Below, piece by piece: positions 6,948 through 22,484 of a stretch of 23,831 nt of DNA. Location of the stretch: positions 1 through 23,831 of IMG/VR virus record IMGVR_UViG_3300042691_004254, one strand, 5' to 3'. How positions within the stretch are numbered: the first letter of the stretch is position 1; each line of letters starts with the position of its first letter. The DNA is from a virus. A model generated the notes under the pieces. That model worked only from the letters and a program-made list of their open reading frames with translations. It was not told the origin of the DNA and ran no database searches. The translations under genes were made by a program, and so were the position numbers.

Positions 6948-7493
6948 CTATATTCTTTCATACTCAAAATAAGTAAATCTAAACGTAGCATCAGCCGTGA
7001 CAATATTTTCCGCAGTATCGCTGACGCTAAATGACAAGGAGCCAACTGTTGTTGGGAACATGTCAATCATCTTGACGCGGAACATAGGATTGTTTTTGTT
7101 AGAATAAATTGTCATAATTCCAGTGGAGTATGGCGGTGGTCTTTTCTCATAACTAGAGCGAATGTTTGCACCGATTGACTGTCTATTCAAGTCTTGATAT
7201 TCCTTAAAGTCGGTTGGGAATGTGATTCCGCGAATCCAATCGTGCAATTGTGTCCAAGCACGCAAATCCTCATCAACCAAGAAAGTTATATTAAAGGTAT
7301 CATAGATTGCTTTTTCGCCAGGAATGTATAGTTCTACGAATGGCGTAGGCATAGGAATTTCTGTGAGTGAAATGCCTGGAAGATTTGCAGTCTGACAAAA
7401 GTATGTAGTATCAGGTAGCCTATCAAAGACCACATGAAACTTGGTACTTTGTAGCAAATCGAATGTGTTAGGATTTCTAGTTATTGATGTCAT
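6948..7493 (-). CDS. Tail-tube-fold protein, probably tail completion/sheath stabiliser gp3
   Basis: 181 residues with the features of the gp19/gp3 tail-tube superfamily. There is an N-terminal strand pair (TKFHVVFDRLPDTTYFCQ), the loop LPGISLTEIPMPTPF, then YDTFNITFLVDEDLRAWTQ, HDWIRGITFP, and a C-terminal strand ADATFRFTYFEY. In marine T4-like phages the gene just after gp23 and before uvsY is usually annotated gp3, which caps the tail tube. That synteny is the main reason for the call. A second tube-type protein at 14395-14952 is the true gp19. This copy has its own late octamer and follows a strong terminator, so it is transcribed separately from gp23. gp54-like or other baseplate tube paralogues are alternatives. 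Confidence 0.75.
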   Translation of the reverse strand: MTSITRNPNTFDLLQSTKFHVVFDRLPDTTYFCQTANLPGISLTEIPMPTPFVELYIPGEKAIYDTFNITFLVDEDLRAWTQLHDWIRGITFPTDFKEYQDLNRQSIGANIRSSYEKRPPPYSTGIMTIYSNKNNPMFRVKMIDMFPTTVGSLSFSVSDTAENIVTADATFRFTYFEYERI

Positions 7494-7617: not shown

Positions 7618-8925
7618 TTATTGATTGATGTTCAACACTTGGAACTTGCGATAGTAGAAGTTCGTATTGTTTGCTAGTGCGCCTGTTCCAGCACCTGTTG
7701 CGAAAGGATTTGCAACTAGACCGTAACGGGTCTTGAAGCCAACCTTTGGCTGGTAGGTTGTTGGGTCAATTGCACGAACCATCTGTAGTGGAACGTATGG
7801 GCAGTAGAACAGACCAGCGTCATATGGCGTTGATCCCTTATAGCCTACACATACATAGTCGTTGCCGCTGACAGAATATGGGTCAACATAGACCTTGATA
7901 CGTCCGAAGAGCGTACCAGCGAATGTGTTACCAGAATCGTCAACTACGAGGTTTGTGTTGCCTGATAGCGCTGAGTTGTAATCGAGAAGACCTGTCATTG
8001 CGAGAGCTGATGCTACATCGGTTGAAACGATGAGCAAGTTGCCCTTACCACGACGGGTGTCTTTTGCGATCTTGTTAGCAGCACGTTCTACAGCGAAGAG
8101 CAAGCTCTTGTACTTCTCAACCTGCCAGCGACCGCTTGTGTCACTTGAAGATGAGAGGTTAAACACTGCTGAAGAAGCACCAACGATACCAACATTAGCT
8201 GTTGCATAAATCGTACGAACTACTTCGCGATTGATTTCTGCAAGAATTTCTGTTGATAGGATGTTGGTTAGTTCTGTTTCAGCATCTAGACCATGCACTG
8301 CCTTGAGGTCTTGTGCAAGTTCTAGTGTGTAGGCTGCTTGTAGACCACGTGATTTTGCTGTAACAGCAACGCGATCGATTTGGAAGCCCATGTAAGCAAG
8401 TGTCTTATCTTCAGCTGTTGCCGTTGACATACCTGCGCCAGTGTTGGCGAGTGTAAGAGCAGCGACGTTGGCTGGGAGAGTAAGTTCAGCATTTGCAGCT
8501 GTAGCACCTGCGTACTCAGTGTTTGCTTCGTTGTAGAGTGCTTCGCCTGTCATTGCTGTTGCAGATGCGTATTGTGAACGCATTGCGAAGATCAAACCTG
8601 TTGGACCTGTCATTGGCTGAACGCCGCAAACATCATAAGCCATTAGGTTTGGTAGCGCACGACGTACGAGACCGATTAGGATTGGGTCGAAGCCCTTGAT
8701 GTTGCCTTCAGAACCGACAACTGGTGACATTCCACCGTTGACTTGGTTAGCAGGTGATGCTTCCCAAAGATTCTGCATTGAACGAGCTTCTTCCATAAGG
8801 GCACGCTCTTGGTTTTCGAGAACGAGGGCAGTAACAGCACGCTTGTAGTTGTCTGTAATTGCTGGGAGTTCTGGATGATCAAGAACTGGTGCCCACTTCT
8901 TTGCATATGTTTCGTTAATATACAT
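7618..8925 (-). CDS. gp23: Major capsid protein gp23 (precursor)
   Basis: HK97-fold shell protein that forms the hexamers of the head. The segment FDPILIGLVRRALPNLMAYD followed by CGVQPMTGPTGLIFAMRSQY is nearly the T4 gp23 sequence, as is EALYNEANTEY. The 435-residue precursor is shorter than T4 gp23 (521), so the insertion domain is probably small or missing. The N-terminal 55 residues form the delta domain expected to be removed by gp21: the sequence LWE/ASPAN at 53-60 fits the L-x-E cleavage rule. A GAGG site precedes the ATG. No late octamer is seen in the 25-base gap before it, so it probably relies on the promoter upstream of gp22. Transcription ends at the strong terminator downstream. 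Confidence 0.98.
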   Translation of the reverse strand: MYINETYAKKWAPVLDHPELPAITDNYKRAVTALVLENQERALMEEARSMQNLWEASPANQVNGGMSPVVGSEGNIKGFDPILIGLVRRALPNLMAYDVCGVQPMTGPTGLIFAMRSQYASATAMTGEALYNEANTEYAGATAANAELTLPANVAALTLANTGAGMSTATAEDKTLAYMGFQIDRVAVTAKSRGLQAAYTLELAQDLKAVHGLDAETELTNILSTEILAEINREVVRTIYATANVGIVGASSAVFNLSSSSDTSGRWQVEKYKSLLFAVERAANKIAKDTRRGKGNLLIVSTDVASALAMTGLLDYNSALSGNTNLVVDDSGNTFAGTLFGRIKVYVDPYSVSGNDYVCVGYKGSTPYDAGLFYCPYVPLQMVRAIDPTTYQPKVGFKTRYGLVANPFATGAGTGALANNTNFYYRKFQVLNINQ

Positions 8926-8950: not shown

Positions 8951-10069
8951 TTAGGCTTTTGGAGCCGTTTTAGATAGTGCTTTTACATAATGTGCCATAA
9001 TACCAGATGCTTGTACTACTTCAGGCTCTTCATTGACTGCAGTTTCTTGAATTGCCTTTACCTCACTTTTCACTGATGTTTTACTTGGGAAGTAGTTCTC
9101 GCGAATTACTGCGAGCTTATTTTCAAAATCACCATCTGCGGTGAACTCCACGCCCTCTGCGAGCGATTTCATTTTGCCAGCCTGTACTTCGGTAAGACCT
9201 TCACATGCTAGGCGAATTGCTTTTTCTTTCTTAACTGCATTAAGTTCTTCAACAAGAGAAGAGATTTCTGTCTGAGCAACTGTTGAAAGATCTTCAACAA
9301 TCCCTTCAAGTTCAACAACCTTAACAGCAAGTTCTTCTGCTACGTCAACCTTCTCTTCTGGTAGTTCAATGTAATGCTCTGCGAAGAGATTCTTGAGACC
9401 AGAAATAAAGTCTTCGACAAGTTCTGCGCGAAGACCTGTTTCGATAGCAACTTGATTATCCTTGACCCACTCTTCAACAACATAGTTGAGATACTCATCA
9501 ACTTGTTCTGAGAGTTCGGATTTGATTTCTTCGATTGCTTGAGCAAGAAGTTCATCGTTTTCAGCAAGAACTTCTTCAACAATCTTTTCGACGCGTGAAG
9601 AAACAGCTGATTCGAAGATTAGAGTTGCTTTGACGCGGAAATCTTCAGAAAGAGATTCGCCGTTGAATAGAGCATCGACATCTTCTCTCATTGAACCACG
9701 ATACCTTTCAACCATTTCTTTCTTCATTTTTGATTTCATTTCTTCGGCGTCATCTTCATCTTTATCTTCGTCTTCGTCTTCGGTTTCTTCCATTGCATCC
9801 ATTGTGTCTTCTACTGCTTCTTCTTCATCGGCAGCGACTTCTGCTTTCACAACCTTTTCGGCTGGTTCAGCTGGAGTACCCTCAACACCTGGTTTTGGTG
9901 CTGGGTTAACAGCATCAGCGGCGTTTGAGCCTACTGATCCTGCGTCCATACTTTCTGGCGTTTGACCGCCAAGATCTTGTGCTACAGTTAGTGCGGCTGC
10001 TGGTTCTTTGCCAGCCATCATTGAGGCTTGTAAAATTTCAGCAGCAGATTCTGATAATGTCTTACTCAT
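8951..10069 (-). CDS. gp22: Prohead scaffold (core) protein gp22
   Basis: Internal scaffold on which the prohead assembles; later cut to peptides by gp21 and expelled. The 372-residue sequence is predominantly helical and strongly acidic. It has an alanine/proline-rich N-terminal 75 residues, then a run of Glu and Asp near 85-110, then a long predicted coiled coil (about 115-290) with repeated EEL/VEE patterns. Many L-x-E and I-x-E sites are present, as expected for a protein that is degraded by gp21. T4 gp22 is 269 residues, so this one is longer, mostly through the N-terminal and acidic parts. Position between gp21 and gp23 is diagnostic. A perfect TATAAATA lies 28 bases before the ATG, with AGGAG between. 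Confidence 0.92.
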   Translation of the reverse strand: MSKTLSESAAEILQASMMAGKEPAAALTVAQDLGGQTPESMDAGSVGSNAADAVNPAPKPGVEGTPAEPAEKVVKAEVAADEEEAVEDTMDAMEETEDEDEDKDEDDAEEMKSKMKKEMVERYRGSMREDVDALFNGESLSEDFRVKATLIFESAVSSRVEKIVEEVLAENDELLAQAIEEIKSELSEQVDEYLNYVVEEWVKDNQVAIETGLRAELVEDFISGLKNLFAEHYIELPEEKVDVAEELAVKVVELEGIVEDLSTVAQTEISSLVEELNAVKKEKAIRLACEGLTEVQAGKMKSLAEGVEFTADGDFENKLAVIRENYFPSKTSVKSEVKAIQETAVNEEPEVVQASGIMAHYVKALSKTAPKA

Positions 10070-10108: not shown

Positions 10109-10753
10109 TTAAAGTTTTGACATGAAGTTTCCGAAGATCTTCAATGCAACTTCATCGATTTGCTTTTGTTTGGCGCTCTTAATTTGTTCGTAATAAGCGT
10201 TAATGTCAACTTCTTTGACAATGCCGTTATCCCAAACCCACTCTTTGTTTTCCATAATGCCTTGAACGAAAGCTCCTGGTGCGGATGGATCCGCTACAAT
10301 ATCTGCCGCTGTGGCGAGATAAAAGTCGTCTTGCACCACGTTAATGCCGCCCTCTTGTTTAAGAGAGCCCATACCTCGTGATGATACACCAAGAGTTGCA
10401 CCGCCCTCCATTAAGGATTTGGCGATTTTACCCATTGGTGTTTCAAGAATTTTTGCCTTACCTACGAAGACATTGCCGTCTTCTTTGAGGTTAGTAATAA
10501 GATGTGAAACGCGATCGAGGTTAATCGTTGGCGAGTCTGGATGACCGAGTTCGCCAAATGCGCGATTCTTGTTAACATACTGTTCCATATAACGCCCAAC
10601 TTCTTTTGCGAGCGTTTCTTTGCGATACACGCGACCATTACGGTTCTTCGTTTCAGCAACAAGAAATGGACCAGAGATGAATAGCGATTTAACGCCATTG
10701 CTTTCTTCTGTAATAACCTTGATTGTTTCGATTGTTTCGGTAATGAGTTTCAT
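10109..10753 (-). CDS. gp21: Prohead maturation protease gp21
   Basis: Serine protease of the herpesvirus-assemblin-like fold. It sits inside the prohead, cleaves capsid and core proteins after L-x-E or I-x-E, then destroys itself. The catalytic pair is visible: His in FGELGHPDSPTI (residue about 70) and Ser in LGVSSRG (about 122-125). The family's 'NRNGRVYRKETL' motif lies at 38-49 and the ADIVADPSAPGAFV loop at about 150. Length is 214 residues, the same as T4 gp21. The ATG lies one base before the stop of the glycine-zipper gene (gap of a single base) and has an AAGG site within that gene's end. Confidence 0.95.
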   Translation of the reverse strand: MKLITETIETIKVITEESNGVKSLFISGPFLVAETKNRNGRVYRKETLAKEVGRYMEQYVNKNRAFGELGHPDSPTINLDRVSHLITNLKEDGNVFVGKAKILETPMGKIAKSLMEGGATLGVSSRGMGSLKQEGGINVVQDDFYLATAADIVADPSAPGAFVQGIMENKEWVWDNGIVKEVDINAYYEQIKSAKQKQIDEVALKIFGNFMSKL

Positions 10754-10754
10754 T

Positions 10755-11522
10755 TTACTTACCTTTTTCTTCTGGGACTAAGATTGTTGATGAGGTAGGT
10801 TTAGGCTCTTTCTTTTGACGTGTTCTTGATGCGTCAAAATTGGAAGAGACTTTAGTGTTTTTTTGCCTTTCAGCAGCACGAATAGCAGCAGCCACAGCAG
10901 CTTGCCCAGCCCTACGCTTGGTTGCTAGTTGTTGCCCTACTTCTGTCTCATCACTGCGTTGTGTGAAAATTCCATGCGCTGGATGATTAACGTGAACTGG
11001 ATGCACAGAAGTTACTGGTTCGTTTGGAGCAGCTGCTTGCTGAACTTGTTGTGGGTGCGCTGCTTGTTTAGGGCGCAGAGGAACAACATTGCTTGGACGT
11101 TGCTGAGGAGCAGATGCTTTAGGTTTTGGTGTTACTAAACCACTAACTGGTTCTGTAGCATCAGGACTTGTTGCATACATGCCGCCTGATTTTCTAACAG
11201 CAACATTTCTTAGATATCTTGACGCAACACCTGGTCTAAATCTAGATTGACCAGCTGCCACAGCTTTCTTTGCTTTTCGTTTGTCTAAAATGTCTGCTGC
11301 TTTATTAGCAATAGCAGCATCTAAAAAACTTTGATTTTGTGATGTTTTTTGTGTAATTTTGTGTCCAGCATATGCACCAGCAATAGCACCGATAGGACCG
11401 CCAGCAAGACCACCAGCAATTCCACCAATTAGTGCACCGCCAATACCTTCTTCAACTTTTACAAGTCGAGTAGGTGGGCGGCTTCTAATCTCTGTCATAT
11501 AATCTTTAAATCTTTTTGGCAT
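10755..11522 (-). CDS. Unassigned prohead-cluster protein with glycine zipper, possible internal protein
   Basis: 255 residues, not recognised as a named T4 protein. Its start, MPKRFKDYMTEIRS, resembles the T4 internal-protein capsid-targeting sequence in pattern: Lys, aromatic, acidic-aromatic, hydrophobic-x-Glu, then Arg. Residues 27-55 form a glycine zipper (GGALIGGIAGGLAGGPIGAI then AGAYAGHKI), a hydrophobic hairpin able to enter a membrane. The rest is low-complexity and basic: an Ala/Lys-rich helix at 65-90, a Pro/Gln/His-rich linker at 130-185, and an Ala/Arg/Gln-rich helix near 195-220. It sits in the prohead block, one base before gp21 and directly behind the basic gp68-like gene (TAG then ATG). 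An ejected internal protein that acts at the host membrane is one reading; a structural core protein is another. Confidence 0.7.
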   Translation of the reverse strand: MPKRFKDYMTEIRSRPPTRLVKVEEGIGGALIGGIAGGLAGGPIGAIAGAYAGHKITQKTSQNQSFLDAAIANKAADILDKRKAKKAVAAGQSRFRPGVASRYLRNVAVRKSGGMYATSPDATEPVSGLVTPKPKASAPQQRPSNVVPLRPKQAAHPQQVQQAAAPNEPVTSVHPVHVNHPAHGIFTQRSDETEVGQQLATKRRAGQAAVAAAIRAAERQKNTKVSSNFDASRTRQKKEPKPTSSTILVPEEKGK

Positions 11523-11870
11523 CTATTTAAGTCCTAATGCTGTTCTTTTGCGGAGAGATCTTTTTCTTTTCATTAATGCACGCGCTGCTTTCGCTTTGCG
11601 TTTAATCTTTGCTTTACGCTGAGAGATTTTTCTTTTAAGTCTCTCTGACGAAGTCATGCGAGTGAGTGTGCCACCACGCATTGTATAACCTTTAACTGCT
11701 GATACAACTTTACGACGTTGTACTTTGCCACCACGAACTCGTGCGCGAACTAGTTTTTTGCGCCCCATCTTCTGAACATTTTCTGATTCATCAAGAGCAA
11801 CAAATGCTTTCATCATCTCAAGTTTTTGATGTACTAATTCAATAAGTTTATCTTTAATTTGCTCAAGCAT
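11523..11870 (-). CDS. Small very basic prohead-cluster protein, gp68-like
   Basis: 115 residues, of which 38 are Lys or Arg. The first 32 residues are a mildly amphipathic helix (MLEQIKDKLIELVHQKLEMM). The remainder is basic, with GRKKLVRARVRGGKVQRRKV, then MTSSERLKRK and a long Arg/Lys/Ala helix ending RKRTALGLK. The 'MTSxERxxRK...KRKAKxxxALxKRKxSLRKR' pattern recurs in small proteins found next to the portal and protease of T4-like phages, often called prohead core protein gp68. Position after gp67 and before gp21 agrees. It overlaps the preceding gene by eight bases (ATGCTTGA). A role in binding the acidic scaffold, or DNA, is inferred from charge. Confidence 0.7.
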   Translation of the reverse strand: MLEQIKDKLIELVHQKLEMMKAFVALDESENVQKMGRKKLVRARVRGGKVQRRKVVSAVKGYTMRGGTLTRMTSSERLKRKISQRKAKIKRKAKAARALMKRKRSLRKRTALGLK

Positions 11871-12612
11871 TTGGCACCATTGGCTTTACTTTTTCGTGAG
11901 CGAAATTAGCAACTTTTGCAAATTTATTTTTGCTTGCTGATAACATGTCAGCAAGTTTTGCTTTATTCTGATCATTGAGTTGATTGTGAACAAGCAAAAT
12001 CTTTTTAGCAATATCGTGATGAACTTCCATTGAAGTTCCATCAAGAAATTTTAATTCTTTTGGCTCGCCTTTAGCAGCCATATCTTTAAGATGTTCTAAA
12101 TTTTCTGCAACGGATTCTTCATTCACACCCATCATAGGATTTTCAAGACCTTGAGAACTATATGGGATTGTAAATGTTAATCCTAGTTTTTCGTTAACAT
12201 AAAGAGCAACACGTCTTCCGTCTGGAAAAATACGAACACCTTTGCGCTTCAACACCATCATCATTGGTGGGTCATTCATATTGGCAGCTTCGCCTAAGAA
12301 CTCTTCGCCGTCAATTTCAAATCCAGCATTAATATTTCTTGCGATAGCCGTTACTGATGAAGTTGTGCCTAGTGCTGCATTTTCAATAGCAGAATTATAT
12401 CGCTGCAAAATATCACGATCCGCTCGAGCCAACTTACCTACATCTTTTCTTTTATTTAATAAGTCAAGAGCACGCATAAGTCTCGGACGATCGGTGGCTG
12501 CAAGCAATCCTCGACTAATAAGTCGATTAATTTTTTGCTTGTGACTCTTTAAAACGTCAGGAGCTTGCGCTTCCGTCAGAGTCAACTTGTTCCGTAGATC
12601 CGTCAACTTCAT
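11863..12612 (-). CDS. Unassigned prohead-cluster protein with possible capsid-targeting N-terminus
   Basis: 249 residues, not a recognised T4 protein. The N-terminus MKLTDLRNKLTLTE/AQAP carries an L-x-E/A site after residue 14, the cleavage rule of gp21. It is also of the length and charge of the T4 internal-protein targeting peptide. Residues 20-80 are helical and basic. A compact alpha/beta segment at about 105-160 (NDPPMMMVLKRKGVRIFPDG, then RVALYVNEKLGLTFTIPYS) resembles a conserved domain in structural proteins of marine T4-like phages. The C-terminal 80 residues are lysine-rich helices. The chosen ATG overlaps gp67 by 56 bases and has only a weak AAGAAG site; the next in-frame Met is residue 46 (start 12477). 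The targeting-peptide match favours the long form. Confidence 0.72.
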   Translation of the reverse strand: MKLTDLRNKLTLTEAQAPDVLKSHKQKINRLISRGLLAATDRPRLMRALDLLNKRKDVGKLARADRDILQRYNSAIENAALGTTSSVTAIARNINAGFEIDGEEFLGEAANMNDPPMMMVLKRKGVRIFPDGRRVALYVNEKLGLTFTIPYSSQGLENPMMGVNEESVAENLEHLKDMAAKGEPKELKFLDGTSMEVHHDIAKKILLVHNQLNDQNKAKLADMLSASKNKFAKVANFAHEKVKPMVPNA

Positions 12613-12772
12613 ACGATGGTTCTTCTTGTGGTGTAATGAGTGTAGATGCTAACTCAACTTTTTTAATTTCGAGCGCATCTGTAACTTTATCAGCTAGAGC
12701 TGCATTAAATGCTTGCATAAAGGTTTCTTTATCACCAGCAACTACAGCGTCTACAATATTAAATGTTTCCAT
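12557..12772 (-). CDS. gp67: Prohead core protein gp67-like
   Basis: Small acidic core protein of the prohead. In T4 gp67 helps shape the core and is cut by gp21 to internal peptides. This product has 71 residues from the ATG at 12772, which is placed behind GGAG; a TTG at 12784 would add four residues but overlaps that ribosome site. The pattern is that of gp67: 'VVAGDKETFMQAFNAALADK' then VTDALEIKKVELASTLI, and an acidic tail of Glu, Asp and Ser. Position directly after the portal gene matches T4. An AATAAATA at 12786-12793 overlaps the portal stop but is only 14 bases from the ATG, probably too close to act as its promoter. The last 56 bases are shared with the next gene in another frame. 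Confidence 0.82.
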   Translation of the reverse strand: METFNIVDAVVAGDKETFMQAFNAALADKVTDALEIKKVELASTLITPQEEPSYEVDGSTEQVDSDGSASS

Positions 12773-12784
12773 AACTATCTCCAA

Positions 12785-14362
12785 TTATTTATTAATTTCA
12801 CTTGCGAATGCTTGATTCATGTCAACAGGTGCTTGTTGAGGCATTTCAGCAGCAGCTTGTTGTTGTAGTGCCGAGTCAACTGCTGATTCAGCAGCAAGTT
12901 CAGCATCCATACGCTGCATACCTTCCTCATCAAACTGTAGGACATGCTTTTTAACCCATGCCTTGGAGAAATAAGTTCCAACATATGGGTCAATTTGGCT
13001 CATGAGTTGAAGTCTTGTAGCCATCAACTCTGATTCTTTTAGTTCGGCAAAGTTATTGTCTTTTAAGAAGTCATAGTGAATCTTTTCGCGGAGCTCTTTC
13101 CATTCGTCAACAGAGCAAATACCTTTGAGAGCAAGCTGTCGTTCCATTAGTTCATCAAACAATGTACTAAACTTGGCTCTAACGCGATCAATAAACTTTG
13201 AAAATTTAAGTTCGTCGCGAGTAATTTCTGCTGTGCGACCTAGTGTAAATCCTGTTTGAGGAACTAGGCGTGAAACTGGCACATTTAATGACTTATATAA
13301 CTTTTCTTCAAAATACTTAACATCAGTAAGTTCGCCGAGGCTCTGTCCACCAGGAAGCGTTGAGATCTCTGTTGACTTACCTTCACCACGACGAGGAATC
13401 CAAAAGTCTTCCATCATTGTCATAAACTTACGATCATCTTTAACTTCGCCTGTGGCGGAATCATAAACAACTTTATTGCGGAATTTAATCATCATATCGC
13501 GCAAGTATTGCTCAGCCTTCATTTTAGGCATGTTACCAACATCGATGTAGAACACACGACGTTCAGGTGCGCGGGACAAACGATAGATAACGACAGCGTC
13601 CTCAACCATTCGGAGCTGATTGAGGGGCTTGATGGCTTTGTGAAGGTATGATAGCACCATCTGTCGTTTTGGGTCCATAAGACCTGAATTTACGTTTACG
13701 ATTGCGTCTGTTGCAATTTTAACAGCACCATCAGCAACTGATGTGATCATATTTTGACCTTGCTGAGATGCCTTATCGCTGTACACATAAAACTCTTGCA
13801 CACCATCAACTACTTCGATGCCTGTGCGCGGATCTTTTTTCTTTTTAACTGCACGAACCTTTTTAATTTTTCTTGGGTCAATGTAAACTAGTTCTTGAAC
13901 TCCAAGTCTTGGTTGTTTTTCATCAATCAATACTTGATAAAAAATTCTTCCATCGATGTACCAGTTGCGGAAAACATCAACGCCTGAGTTAGAAAAGTCA
14001 AGTAGTCGTAAAACATTATCAAATTCGTTACGAATCATATCCTTGATTTCATCAGGTTGTTCTAAATCATCAAGGATAATTGATACTGACTTGCCTGTAA
14101 CATCATGCACGATTGCTTCGTTGACGATGTCATCGACGGCTGCTTCAAGTTCTGGCTGCATAGCCATTTCTCGATATCTTGAAACTAGATCGCCTTCATT
14201 TTTAAAACTTGATTCTAAATCAAGATAAGTTCCGTAATATCCGCCAGAATTTACATTGATTGCACCATCATCAGCAACTGGTGCAGTGATCTGAGGCTGA
14301 ACAGTCGATTGTTCTGGTTGATTACGGACTATCTGAAAGCCGAATAGATTAATTCCAGCCAT
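12785..14362 (-). CDS. gp20: Portal vertex protein gp20
   Basis: Forms the dodecameric portal at the unique head vertex through which DNA enters and leaves; it also starts prohead assembly. The 525-residue length is almost that of T4 gp20 (524). Recognisable family segments are SRYREMAMQPELEAAVDDIV near residue 60, VYIDPRKIKKVRAVKK, the RAPERRVFYIDVGNMPKMKA segment with AEQYLRDMMIKFRNKVVYD, and the PRRGEGKSTEISTLPGGQSL and LNVPVSRL segments. The C-terminus is Gln/Ala-rich. ATG is preceded by GGAG. No convincing late octamer lies in the 32-base gap to gp19, so it is probably read through from gp19. Confidence 0.97.
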   Translation of the reverse strand: MAGINLFGFQIVRNQPEQSTVQPQITAPVADDGAINVNSGGYYGTYLDLESSFKNEGDLVSRYREMAMQPELEAAVDDIVNEAIVHDVTGKSVSIILDDLEQPDEIKDMIRNEFDNVLRLLDFSNSGVDVFRNWYIDGRIFYQVLIDEKQPRLGVQELVYIDPRKIKKVRAVKKKKDPRTGIEVVDGVQEFYVYSDKASQQGQNMITSVADGAVKIATDAIVNVNSGLMDPKRQMVLSYLHKAIKPLNQLRMVEDAVVIYRLSRAPERRVFYIDVGNMPKMKAEQYLRDMMIKFRNKVVYDSATGEVKDDRKFMTMMEDFWIPRRGEGKSTEISTLPGGQSLGELTDVKYFEEKLYKSLNVPVSRLVPQTGFTLGRTAEITRDELKFSKFIDRVRAKFSTLFDELMERQLALKGICSVDEWKELREKIHYDFLKDNNFAELKESELMATRLQLMSQIDPYVGTYFSKAWVKKHVLQFDEEGMQRMDAELAAESAVDSALQQQAAAEMPQQAPVDMNQAFASEINK

Positions 14363-14394: not shown

Positions 14395-14952
14395 TTAAAC
14401 AATAACTTCAGATGAGGAATTATTATTCTCTGCTTCCCACCATTGGTATGCGAATGTAACCGTAAACTCTTCGATCATATCATTATTGCCCCAATCTAGA
14501 TCGATTGGAGAAATGTCTGTTGGGAACATTCCAATAAATTTATAACGACGTAGTACGGATCCATTCTTACCATAATGTGTTACGGCAGCGTCACTGGTGT
14601 ATGAACTTGGTGATCGACCAATGTTACGGACATTTGAGCCGTGACTATTGATTAACTGCATCCAACGCTCAAATCCACCTCTAATCTTAAAATCCTCATC
14701 GTTAATAATGTTTACTGTCCAATCAGCAAATGTGCGGTTGCCAGCAAATTTTACTTCGCGACCGAAGTATGGAACAACAACTTGGTTAACCGTTGATCCA
14801 GGGATTTGAGCACTTTTACACTTGAATGCCACATCGCGACGAAATCTGCTGTTTCCAAAAGCTGCTGGGAAGTTCAATTGAACGTCAAACAGGTTGGCTC
14901 TTGCGCCATCAAACTTCATTTCATTACGGAAGTTGCTTACATTAAAAGCCAT
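14395..14952 (-). CDS. gp19: Tail tube protein gp19
   Basis: Subunit of the inner tail tube, stacked as hexamers inside the sheath. 185 residues, with the family features ANLFDVQLNFP, FKCKSAQIPGSTVNQVVVPY, the GREVKFAGNRTFADWTVNII strand and NDEDFKIRGGFERWMQLINS helix, MFPTDISPIDLDW and the C-terminal FTVTFAYQWWE. T4 gp19 is 163 residues. It has a CAGGAG ribosome site and its own late octamer CATAAATA in the 34-base gap after gp18, consistent with the large amounts needed. It shares a fold with the protein at 6948-7493 but the sequences are clearly diverged. Confidence 0.96.
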   Translation of the reverse strand: MAFNVSNFRNEMKFDGARANLFDVQLNFPAAFGNSRFRRDVAFKCKSAQIPGSTVNQVVVPYFGREVKFAGNRTFADWTVNIINDEDFKIRGGFERWMQLINSHGSNVRNIGRSPSSYTSDAAVTHYGKNGSVLRRYKFIGMFPTDISPIDLDWGNNDMIEEFTVTFAYQWWEAENNNSSSEVIV

Positions 14953-21598: not shown

Positions 21599-21961
21599 TT
21601 ATCTATTGCCTTTTTCATAAAACACTGCAAGGCTAGCTGGTTCCATATCTTCTGGAATCGCCCAAGGAAGCGTCCGCTGATGACCAGAAGTAAATTGATT
21701 GGCTAGACCTGCTTCAATCGCCCGAACATCTAGAATGGACTTAACCCATTCTAAAACTTGTGCTTCAGTCAAACTATTATAATCGGTGAAGTTATTTGCT
21801 GATGGGGCAGAGAGACGGACAAAAGCGTCGACGTCTCTCTTAATTCCATCTTTTGTTGCAGTCACTTTCCAGTGGACATCACGAACAACGTTGTTCAAAC
21901 TGTCAAGATTTGACAGTGTTTGCATTGAAAGGATTGACCACTTATAAGTGATTCCAGACAT
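21599..21961 (-). CDS. Small tail-cluster protein A (paralogue of the gene at 22167-22484)
   Basis: 120 residues, function unknown. It shares its whole core with the protein encoded at 22167-22484: an initial Y-x-W strand, 'LNNVVRDVHWKVTATKDG', a strand ending VRLSAPSANNFTDYNSLTEA, a short helix QVLEWVKSILD, and a final T-L-P-W motif. Such small proteins occur next to tail-fibre genes in several marine phages and may be virion or fibre-assembly components. That role is inferred from position. This copy has about 18 residues after the terminal PW motif that its paralogue lacks. The ATG overlaps the stop of the preceding gene by one base (TAATG). Confidence 0.75.
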   Translation of the reverse strand: MSGITYKWSILSMQTLSNLDSLNNVVRDVHWKVTATKDGIKRDVDAFVRLSAPSANNFTDYNSLTEAQVLEWVKSILDVRAIEAGLANQFTSGHQRTLPWAIPEDMEPASLAVFYEKGNR

Positions 21962-22166: not shown

Positions 22167-22484
22167 TTAAACCCAAGGAACAGATTTAGAAACAATTGGA
22201 GGATTTGCTAATCTCTCTAATTGTGCATCTAAAGAACTCATTAGTTCTTTTTTATTTAGTTTGCTCTCCAGCCATGACTCGACTTGTGTTTTGGTCAAAC
22301 TATTAAAGGCTGTGAATGATTCGCTGGTTGGTCCTTCTAATGACACAGTGCCATAAACTTCAGCATCATGAGTGCCGTTGTTTGCATGAAAACGCCAGTG
22401 AACTGCTTTGACAACATCAGATAGCGCACCCTCAGATGGTGCAGTATCTAATGCACTGATTAACCAATTGTATGTTGTGCTCAT
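22167..22484 (-). CDS. Small tail-cluster protein B (paralogue of the gene at 21599-21961)
   Basis: 105 residues, function unknown. It aligns end to end with the protein at 21599-21961: Y-x-W start (TTYNWLISALDTAP), 'LSDVVKAVHWRFHANNG', a strand leading into 'SESFTAFNSLTKTQVESWLE', a charged helix (KLNKKELMSSLDAQLERL) and a final VPWV. The shared positions are the aromatic and hydrophobic ones (VHW, F-T-x-[FY]-N-S-L-T, Q-V-x-x-W). An AAGGAG site precedes the ATG. A duplication followed by divergence around the 60-residue gene is the simplest history. Confidence 0.75.
   Translation of the reverse strand: MSTTYNWLISALDTAPSEGALSDVVKAVHWRFHANNGTHDAEVYGTVSLEGPTSESFTAFNSLTKTQVESWLESKLNKKELMSSLDAQLERLANPPIVSKSVPWV

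Follow-up and report, generated by a model that had tools for sequence, protein, structure and literature searches.

The window analysed here, a 23.8-kb virus contig (23,831 nucleotides), carries a prohead gene cassette on its minus strand. Within this cassette, ZIP (10755..11522, minus strand) is a 255-aa open reading frame encoding a protein of 27.0 kDa with a pI of 10.6, considered here as a candidate internal (ejected) head protein. ZIP lies between the prohead-core genes and the gp21 protease gene, and its neighbours are all on its strand. On the upstream side are bas (11523..11870, minus strand), a 115-aa very basic prohead-cassette protein with a pI of 11.9; p249 (11863..12612, minus strand), a 249-aa prohead-cassette protein whose residues 166-239 match phrog_696 and whose N-terminus contains an LTLTE^A site; a gp67-like core protein beginning METFNIVDAVVAGDKE... 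(12557..12772, minus strand), with relatives alike in position and sequence type; and the gp20 portal protein (12785..14362, minus strand; phrog_213, E 1e-198). On the downstream side, profile matches identify the gp21 prohead protease (10109..10753, minus strand; Peptidase_S77), the gp22 scaffold (8951..10069, minus strand) and the gp23 major capsid protein (7618..8925, minus strand). The profile matches to gp20, gp21, gp22 and gp23 confirm the prohead-cassette setting given in the initial annotation. Two tail-tube-like genes, both phrog_45, flank the head genes on either side (6948-7493 and 14395-14952), and two small proteins further along the window (21599-21961 and 22167-22484) resemble paralogues, with the segments ..VVRDVHWKV.. 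and ..VVKAVHWRF.., respectively.

The ZIP open reading frame looks coding. GC content at the first, second and third codon positions is 0.61, 0.51 and 0.19, a strong coding periodicity, and the remaining two frames of the same strand contain 12 and 21 stops. The third-position value is low and differs from that of the neighbouring genes. The ATG of ZIP abuts the bas stop, with a ribosome-site-like AGGA upstream, and the ribosome-site-like sequence of gp21 sits within the last codons at the 3' end of ZIP. The extent previously assigned to the open reading frame, 10755-11522, is exactly right; its minus-strand orientation, absent from that description, is added here.

The protein has a net charge of +23, which together with its pI makes it basic, as the class of internal proteins requires, and bears out the basic, low-complexity remainder described earlier. 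Residues 61-255 form this basic region (10758..11342, minus strand), with helices predicted at low confidence for residues 62-89, 97-111 and 192-223. The single-sequence structure model has a pLDDT of 57, leaves residues 24-42 undefined and is too low in confidence for meaningful fold matches. Searches of Pfam and PHROGs gave no recognisable cytoplasmic domain; the matches returned, with E from 0.008 to 0.75, involve the zipper or low-complexity parts and were set aside.

Targeting-like N-terminus, candidate cut sites and glycine zipper

ZIP begins with MPKRFKDYMTEIRS, as quoted in the initial annotation, and residues K3-E11, KRFKDYMTE, form a capsid-targeting-like peptide (CTS; 11490..11516, minus strand), at the end of which, following E11 (MTE^I), lies the first candidate site for gp21. 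T4 ipII begins with MKTYQEFIAEAR, and T4 ipII and ipIII both start MKTYQEFIAEA. The T4 targeting-peptide pattern noted earlier, K-x-aromatic-x-acidic-aromatic-hydrophobic-x-E-x-R, fits T4 ipII with a one-residue shift: F5, Y8, M9 and E11 of ZIP correspond to T4 positions 4, 7, 8 and 10, with the aromatics, the hydrophobic residue and the glutamate spaced alike. In the T4 CTS, residues 4 and 7 serve mainly targeting, and residues 8 and 10 processing (reviewed in PMC9026906).

The pattern arises seldom by chance, with 30 matches in 200,000 shuffles of ZIP residues 2-25, and its strict form is found in 7 of 4,433 distinct N-termini drawn from 223 gp20/gp21/gp23-anchored loci and the window. A CTS weight matrix, built from 18 CTS-like N-termini with the window left out, ranks ZIP 13th of 2,097 ORF N-termini; some top scorers belong to the training set, making their own scores circular. 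Among the held-out N-termini, too, the high scorers come mostly from cassette proteins (L046, L073, L156, L213), and the entries ranked near ZIP are mostly gp20-gp21 cassette proteins and putative cargo. Homologues of bas in other lineages also bear the CTS (MKRFKSFITEE, MKSFSTFISES, MITFKQFISEA), and KRFKDYMTE of ZIP is nearly identical to KRFKSFITE of the bas homologues in L139 and L141. When the 5' end of ZIP was compared by eye with bas genes that bear a CTS, nothing at DNA level pointed to a recent copy.

The glycine zipper occupies about residues 26-53, GIGGALIGGIAGGLAGGPIGAIAGAYAG (11364..11447, minus strand), close to the previously proposed residues 27-55. It is an uncharged 28-mer with eight overlapping GxxxG motifs, and 20,000 shuffles of ZIP never reached that number. 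The highest 19-residue hydropathy of ZIP is 1.59, borderline for a transmembrane helix. The Pfam bit scores for PF13488 and PF05433, 15.1 and 13.9, are below the curated cut-offs of 25 and 24.2 (Gly-zipper_Omp, E 0.022), and the segment is described as zipper-like only. Glycine zippers also occur in soluble helix packing.

A second candidate gp21 site, V23-E24-E25^G26 (11448..11456, minus strand), lies directly before the zipper and was missed in the initial annotation. Hydrophobic-x-Glu occurs just three times in ZIP: E11 closes the CTS, E25 belongs to this second candidate, and E251 is 4 residues from the C-terminal end. T4 gp21 cleaves after L/I-x-E (PMC9026906). The two N-terminal candidates, M-T-E^I and V-E-E^G, come close to this motif without matching it exactly, with Met or Val at P3 versus Leu/Ile in the T4 consensus, a comparison made against T4 specificity, which may not be that of this gp21. 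Cleavage at at least one of these N-terminal sites is somewhat favoured by the sequence, and following a cut at E25 mature ZIP would begin with the zipper.

These features bear on the alternative that ZIP is a membrane protein of the infected cell, involved in superinfection exclusion or lysis timing, which merely lies in the head operon and whose CTS likeness is accidental. Zipper proteins with secretion-signal-like N-termini are indeed encoded away from the head genes in related phages (L326, L324, L325), but they lack a CTS and their N-termini are of the hydrophobic secretion type. The CTS match of ZIP is, moreover, improbable by chance, and other genes in the same slot start CTS-like, which makes this explanation improbable.

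ZIP is a lineage-specific insertion between bas and gp21

The cassette was compared across 223 viral loci anchored on gp21, gp23 and gp20. Both bas and gp21 were found in 130 other loci and ZIP in none of them, with fewer independent cases than 130 because some contigs contribute more than one locus, as overlapping stretches. In the loci lacking ZIP, the gap between bas and gp21 is mostly 0-8 nt and most of the pairs abut, as they do in L019, which has a capsid protein of 93% identity. The gp67-like, p249 and bas genes are present between gp20 and gp21 in related loci from which ZIP is absent, so ZIP does not belong to the conserved cassette in the manner of gp67/gp68. The same slot contains a 108-aa open reading frame beginning MKSFKQLYEET in L130, a 42-aa open reading frame beginning MKKFKEF in L050 and L051, and a GIY-YIG/NUMOD3 homing endonuclease in L084 (3046-3579), L158 and L159. 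ZIP is an in-operon insertion at an accessory position and is lineage-specific, a status new relative to the initial annotation, and the slot adjoining gp21 takes insertions, several of which have CTS-like starts.

Since ZIP is absent from 130 related loci, a general role in assembly or entry across the group is excluded. This bears directly on a role as a prohead core or assembly factor, in which the zipper would anchor the portal-core initiation complex to the inner membrane and ZIP would be cleaved later. The placement of ZIP among gp67, p249, bas and gp21 suits such a role, as does the assembly of T4 proheads at the inner membrane, from which they detach after proteolysis (PMC9026906). A component missing from every one of the other loci with the same neighbours is, however, not a needed core part, and a zipper exposed only by cleavage would act after detachment rather than before it. 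The role is accordingly judged a poor candidate, and the anchoring of the prohead initiation complex suggested in the initial annotation becomes less likely, because of these loci and because the CTS route leads into the core.

No homologue of ZIP was found in phages (tblastn), in viral contigs (searched with whole ZIP and with its middle part), in genome contigs, in 90 viral records, many of them fragmentary, or in the 223 loci (tblastn, unfiltered), within the reach of pattern scans that require an exact 8-residue match and of BLAST, whose filter can mask zippers, so that distant relatives are missed. A match in L154 (E 4.6) was regarded as chance. The lack of homologues, along with a third-position GC unlike that of the neighbours, is what a young or random functionless insertion, an orphan that happens to stay open, would display. 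The coding periodicity, the ribosome-site-like sequence and the seamless fit into the operon argue against it, as do the organised N-terminus, with its CTS, cut site and zipper, and the similar architecture on two other contigs (below), and this explanation is very improbable.

Putative CTS-tagged cargo and zipper proteins beyond the window

Nine whole T4-like records were scanned with a codon-level form of the CTS pattern; seven of them gave 11 matches in all, and the backwards control gave 0. Several of the open reading frames starting at these matches are cargo-like. One, at L168:384-1166, encodes a 261-aa protein with the CTS-like start MKSFKEFLFEE and an ADP-ribosyltransferase domain (Pfam PF03496, E 1.8e-14); its sequence suggests the likely equivalent of T4 Alt, packed in the head of an uncultivated relative. 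Others are HAD-like or nucleotidyltransferase-like, identified by eye. In this way the CTS offers a means of cataloguing the putative ejected cargo of uncultivated T4-like phages.

Among long relatives of the window, L317, L318 and L322 encode proteins that start CTS-like and, judged by eye, resemble HAD phosphatases (FDVDDTLFHT). Nucleotidyltransferase-like proteins with the CTS-like starts MKKFSDFLTEA and MKNFNSFLTEA are encoded by cyanophages S-SSM4 (CYXG_00145, L309:6235-7404) and S-B68 (L315), respectively. T4 gene 61.1 (L330:267-431) encodes a 54-aa hypothetical protein with the CTS-like start MKTFKEFIKED followed by a lysine-rich tail.

The combination of CTS and zipper was found on two unrelated viral contigs beyond the window, L234 and L285, in a scan that demanded a CTS together with GxxxGxxxG, so that these cases represent recurrence and not a test of enrichment. 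L234 encodes a 152-aa CTS protein in which MKSFKKYISEEAELDE is followed directly by GLKGAAVGGAGG.., placing an exact L-x-E site (L-D-E) immediately before the zipper. The adjacent gene encodes a 285-aa protein without a CTS, in which ..VELDE likewise leads directly into the zipper SIAGAVIGGLGG.., again with an exact L-D-E. The 152-aa protein has no significant sequence similarity to ZIP, and searches with the zipper proteins of L234 returned only L234 itself. A gp67-like gene lies in the same stretch; the gene run at L234:3036-5284 has the CTS-like starts MISFKKYLNE, MDSFKTFIEN and MKSFKKYISEE in addition to the two zipper proteins, near gp67-like and endolysin genes. In L285, a 391-aa CTS protein beginning MKSFTQFIFE.. 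has its zipper near the C-terminus (Gly-zipper_Omp, E 3.4e-5). Most of the 82 stretches matching the CTS-plus-GxxxGxxxG pattern are glycine-rich and not zippers. A weak Melnitz match to an L234 zipper protein falls mostly on the acidic repeat preceding the zipper, and the PF05433 zipper proteins of G051, S-SSM4 and Melnitz, with secretion-type N-termini and no CTS, were set aside as a different type.

The diversity of this CTS cargo, and the accessory, lineage-specific nature of ZIP, would also suit ordinary anti-defence cargo of the internal-protein kind. The basic C-terminal part would then have a cytoplasmic target, such as a restriction enzyme, and the role of the zipper would be in packing or oligomerisation, or only in ZIP's own translocation. 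IPI of T4 is a GmrSD inhibitor, and in one host strain IPIII is required in the cytoplasm (PMC3012670, PMC9391042). Against such a function, Pfam and PHROGs show no cytoplasmic domain that can be recognised in ZIP, its long stretch of low complexity does not resemble the compactly folded IPI, and a zipper directly behind the cut site would not be needed. Anti-defence cargo is a real but doubtful possibility.

Proposed route of ZIP and comparison with known systems

The best explanation, to which we give about an even chance on the sequence features, is that ZIP is lineage-specific cargo of the T4 internal-protein type, loaded into the head and expelled together with the DNA, its zipper engaging the host inner membrane. 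The CTS would dock ZIP on the scaffold core, enclosing it in the prohead. Cleavage by gp21 after E11 and/or E25 would free ZIP from the core, and the cut at E25 would make the zipper a free N-terminus. The basic part may then bind up with the packaged DNA, as proposed for the T4 internal proteins, and ZIP would leave through the tail together with the genome. The exposed zipper could insert into or permeabilise the inner membrane, helping ZIP itself, and perhaps the leading DNA, into the cytoplasm; alternatively, the host or rival phages may be the target of ZIP at the membrane.

Packaging is the best-supported part of this mechanism, and ZIP is probably carried in the head, as the initial annotation held; the CTS, the slot and the CTS-like genes occupying that slot elsewhere support this well. 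Membrane engagement after ejection is a tentative reading with rather less than an even chance, drawn from the zipper, its placement behind a candidate cut site and the precedent of Tde1; from the zipper and this precedent (PMC10240207), membrane activity of ZIP is plausible. The accompanying proposal of help for DNA across the inner membrane does not stand as a general step, since 130 related loci lack ZIP, and specific, lineage-restricted aid to DNA entry is unlikely. T4-type passage of DNA across the inner membrane is described as essentially unknown (PMC11054660). A head-packed protein whose membrane-active segment becomes N-terminal on maturation would be a testable candidate helper for this step in some lineages.

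The T4 internal proteins carry a CTS, become enclosed in the core, undergo trimming by gp21 and leave along with the DNA at ejection; apart from the tag, they vary between phages (PMC9026906, PMC3012670, PMC9391042). ZIP resembles IPI, IPII and IPIII in its N-terminal CTS with matching spacing, and in being accessory and lineage-variable apart from the tag. In contrast to ZIP, the T4 ip genes sit outside the prohead cassette, and no glycine zipper is described for their products; T4 ipII and ipIII have Ile at P3 of the cut site where ZIP has Met or Val, and beyond the tag no sequence relation is seen. With the CTS-tagged ADP-ribosyltransferase and other putative cargo (L168, L152, L130), ZIP has the tag type and the phage group in common, whereas these proteins have enzyme or unknown domains where ZIP has a zipper, and only L130 and L050/L051 use its slot. 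ZIP shares CTS and zipper with the 152-aa protein of L234 and the 391-aa protein of L285, although the zipper of the latter is near the C-terminus, and the 285-aa protein of L234 has no CTS.

Members of PF13488 and PF05433 resemble ZIP in their GxxxG repeats within a hydrophobic stretch but are mostly exported envelope proteins, whereas ZIP has no signal-peptide-like start and scores under the cut-offs. The type VI secretion (T6SS) effector Tde1 requires its N-terminal glycine zipper (GxxxG) for crossing the target inner membrane, and zippers are also noted in phage tape measure proteins (PMC10240207). Tde1 is like ZIP in having a zipper near the N-terminus and is delivered by a contractile machine; it is otherwise an unrelated protein with a DNase domain and T6SS delivery, whereas ZIP has no recognised enzymatic domain. 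A broader proposal, that in some T4-like phages a CTS-tagged, protease-activated zipper protein, ejected either with the DNA or in advance of it, creates or opens an inner-membrane passage, is decidedly unlikely; if true, such a protein would be to T4-type phages what the ejection proteins are to short-tailed phages, its membrane activity masked until gp21 cuts before the zipper.
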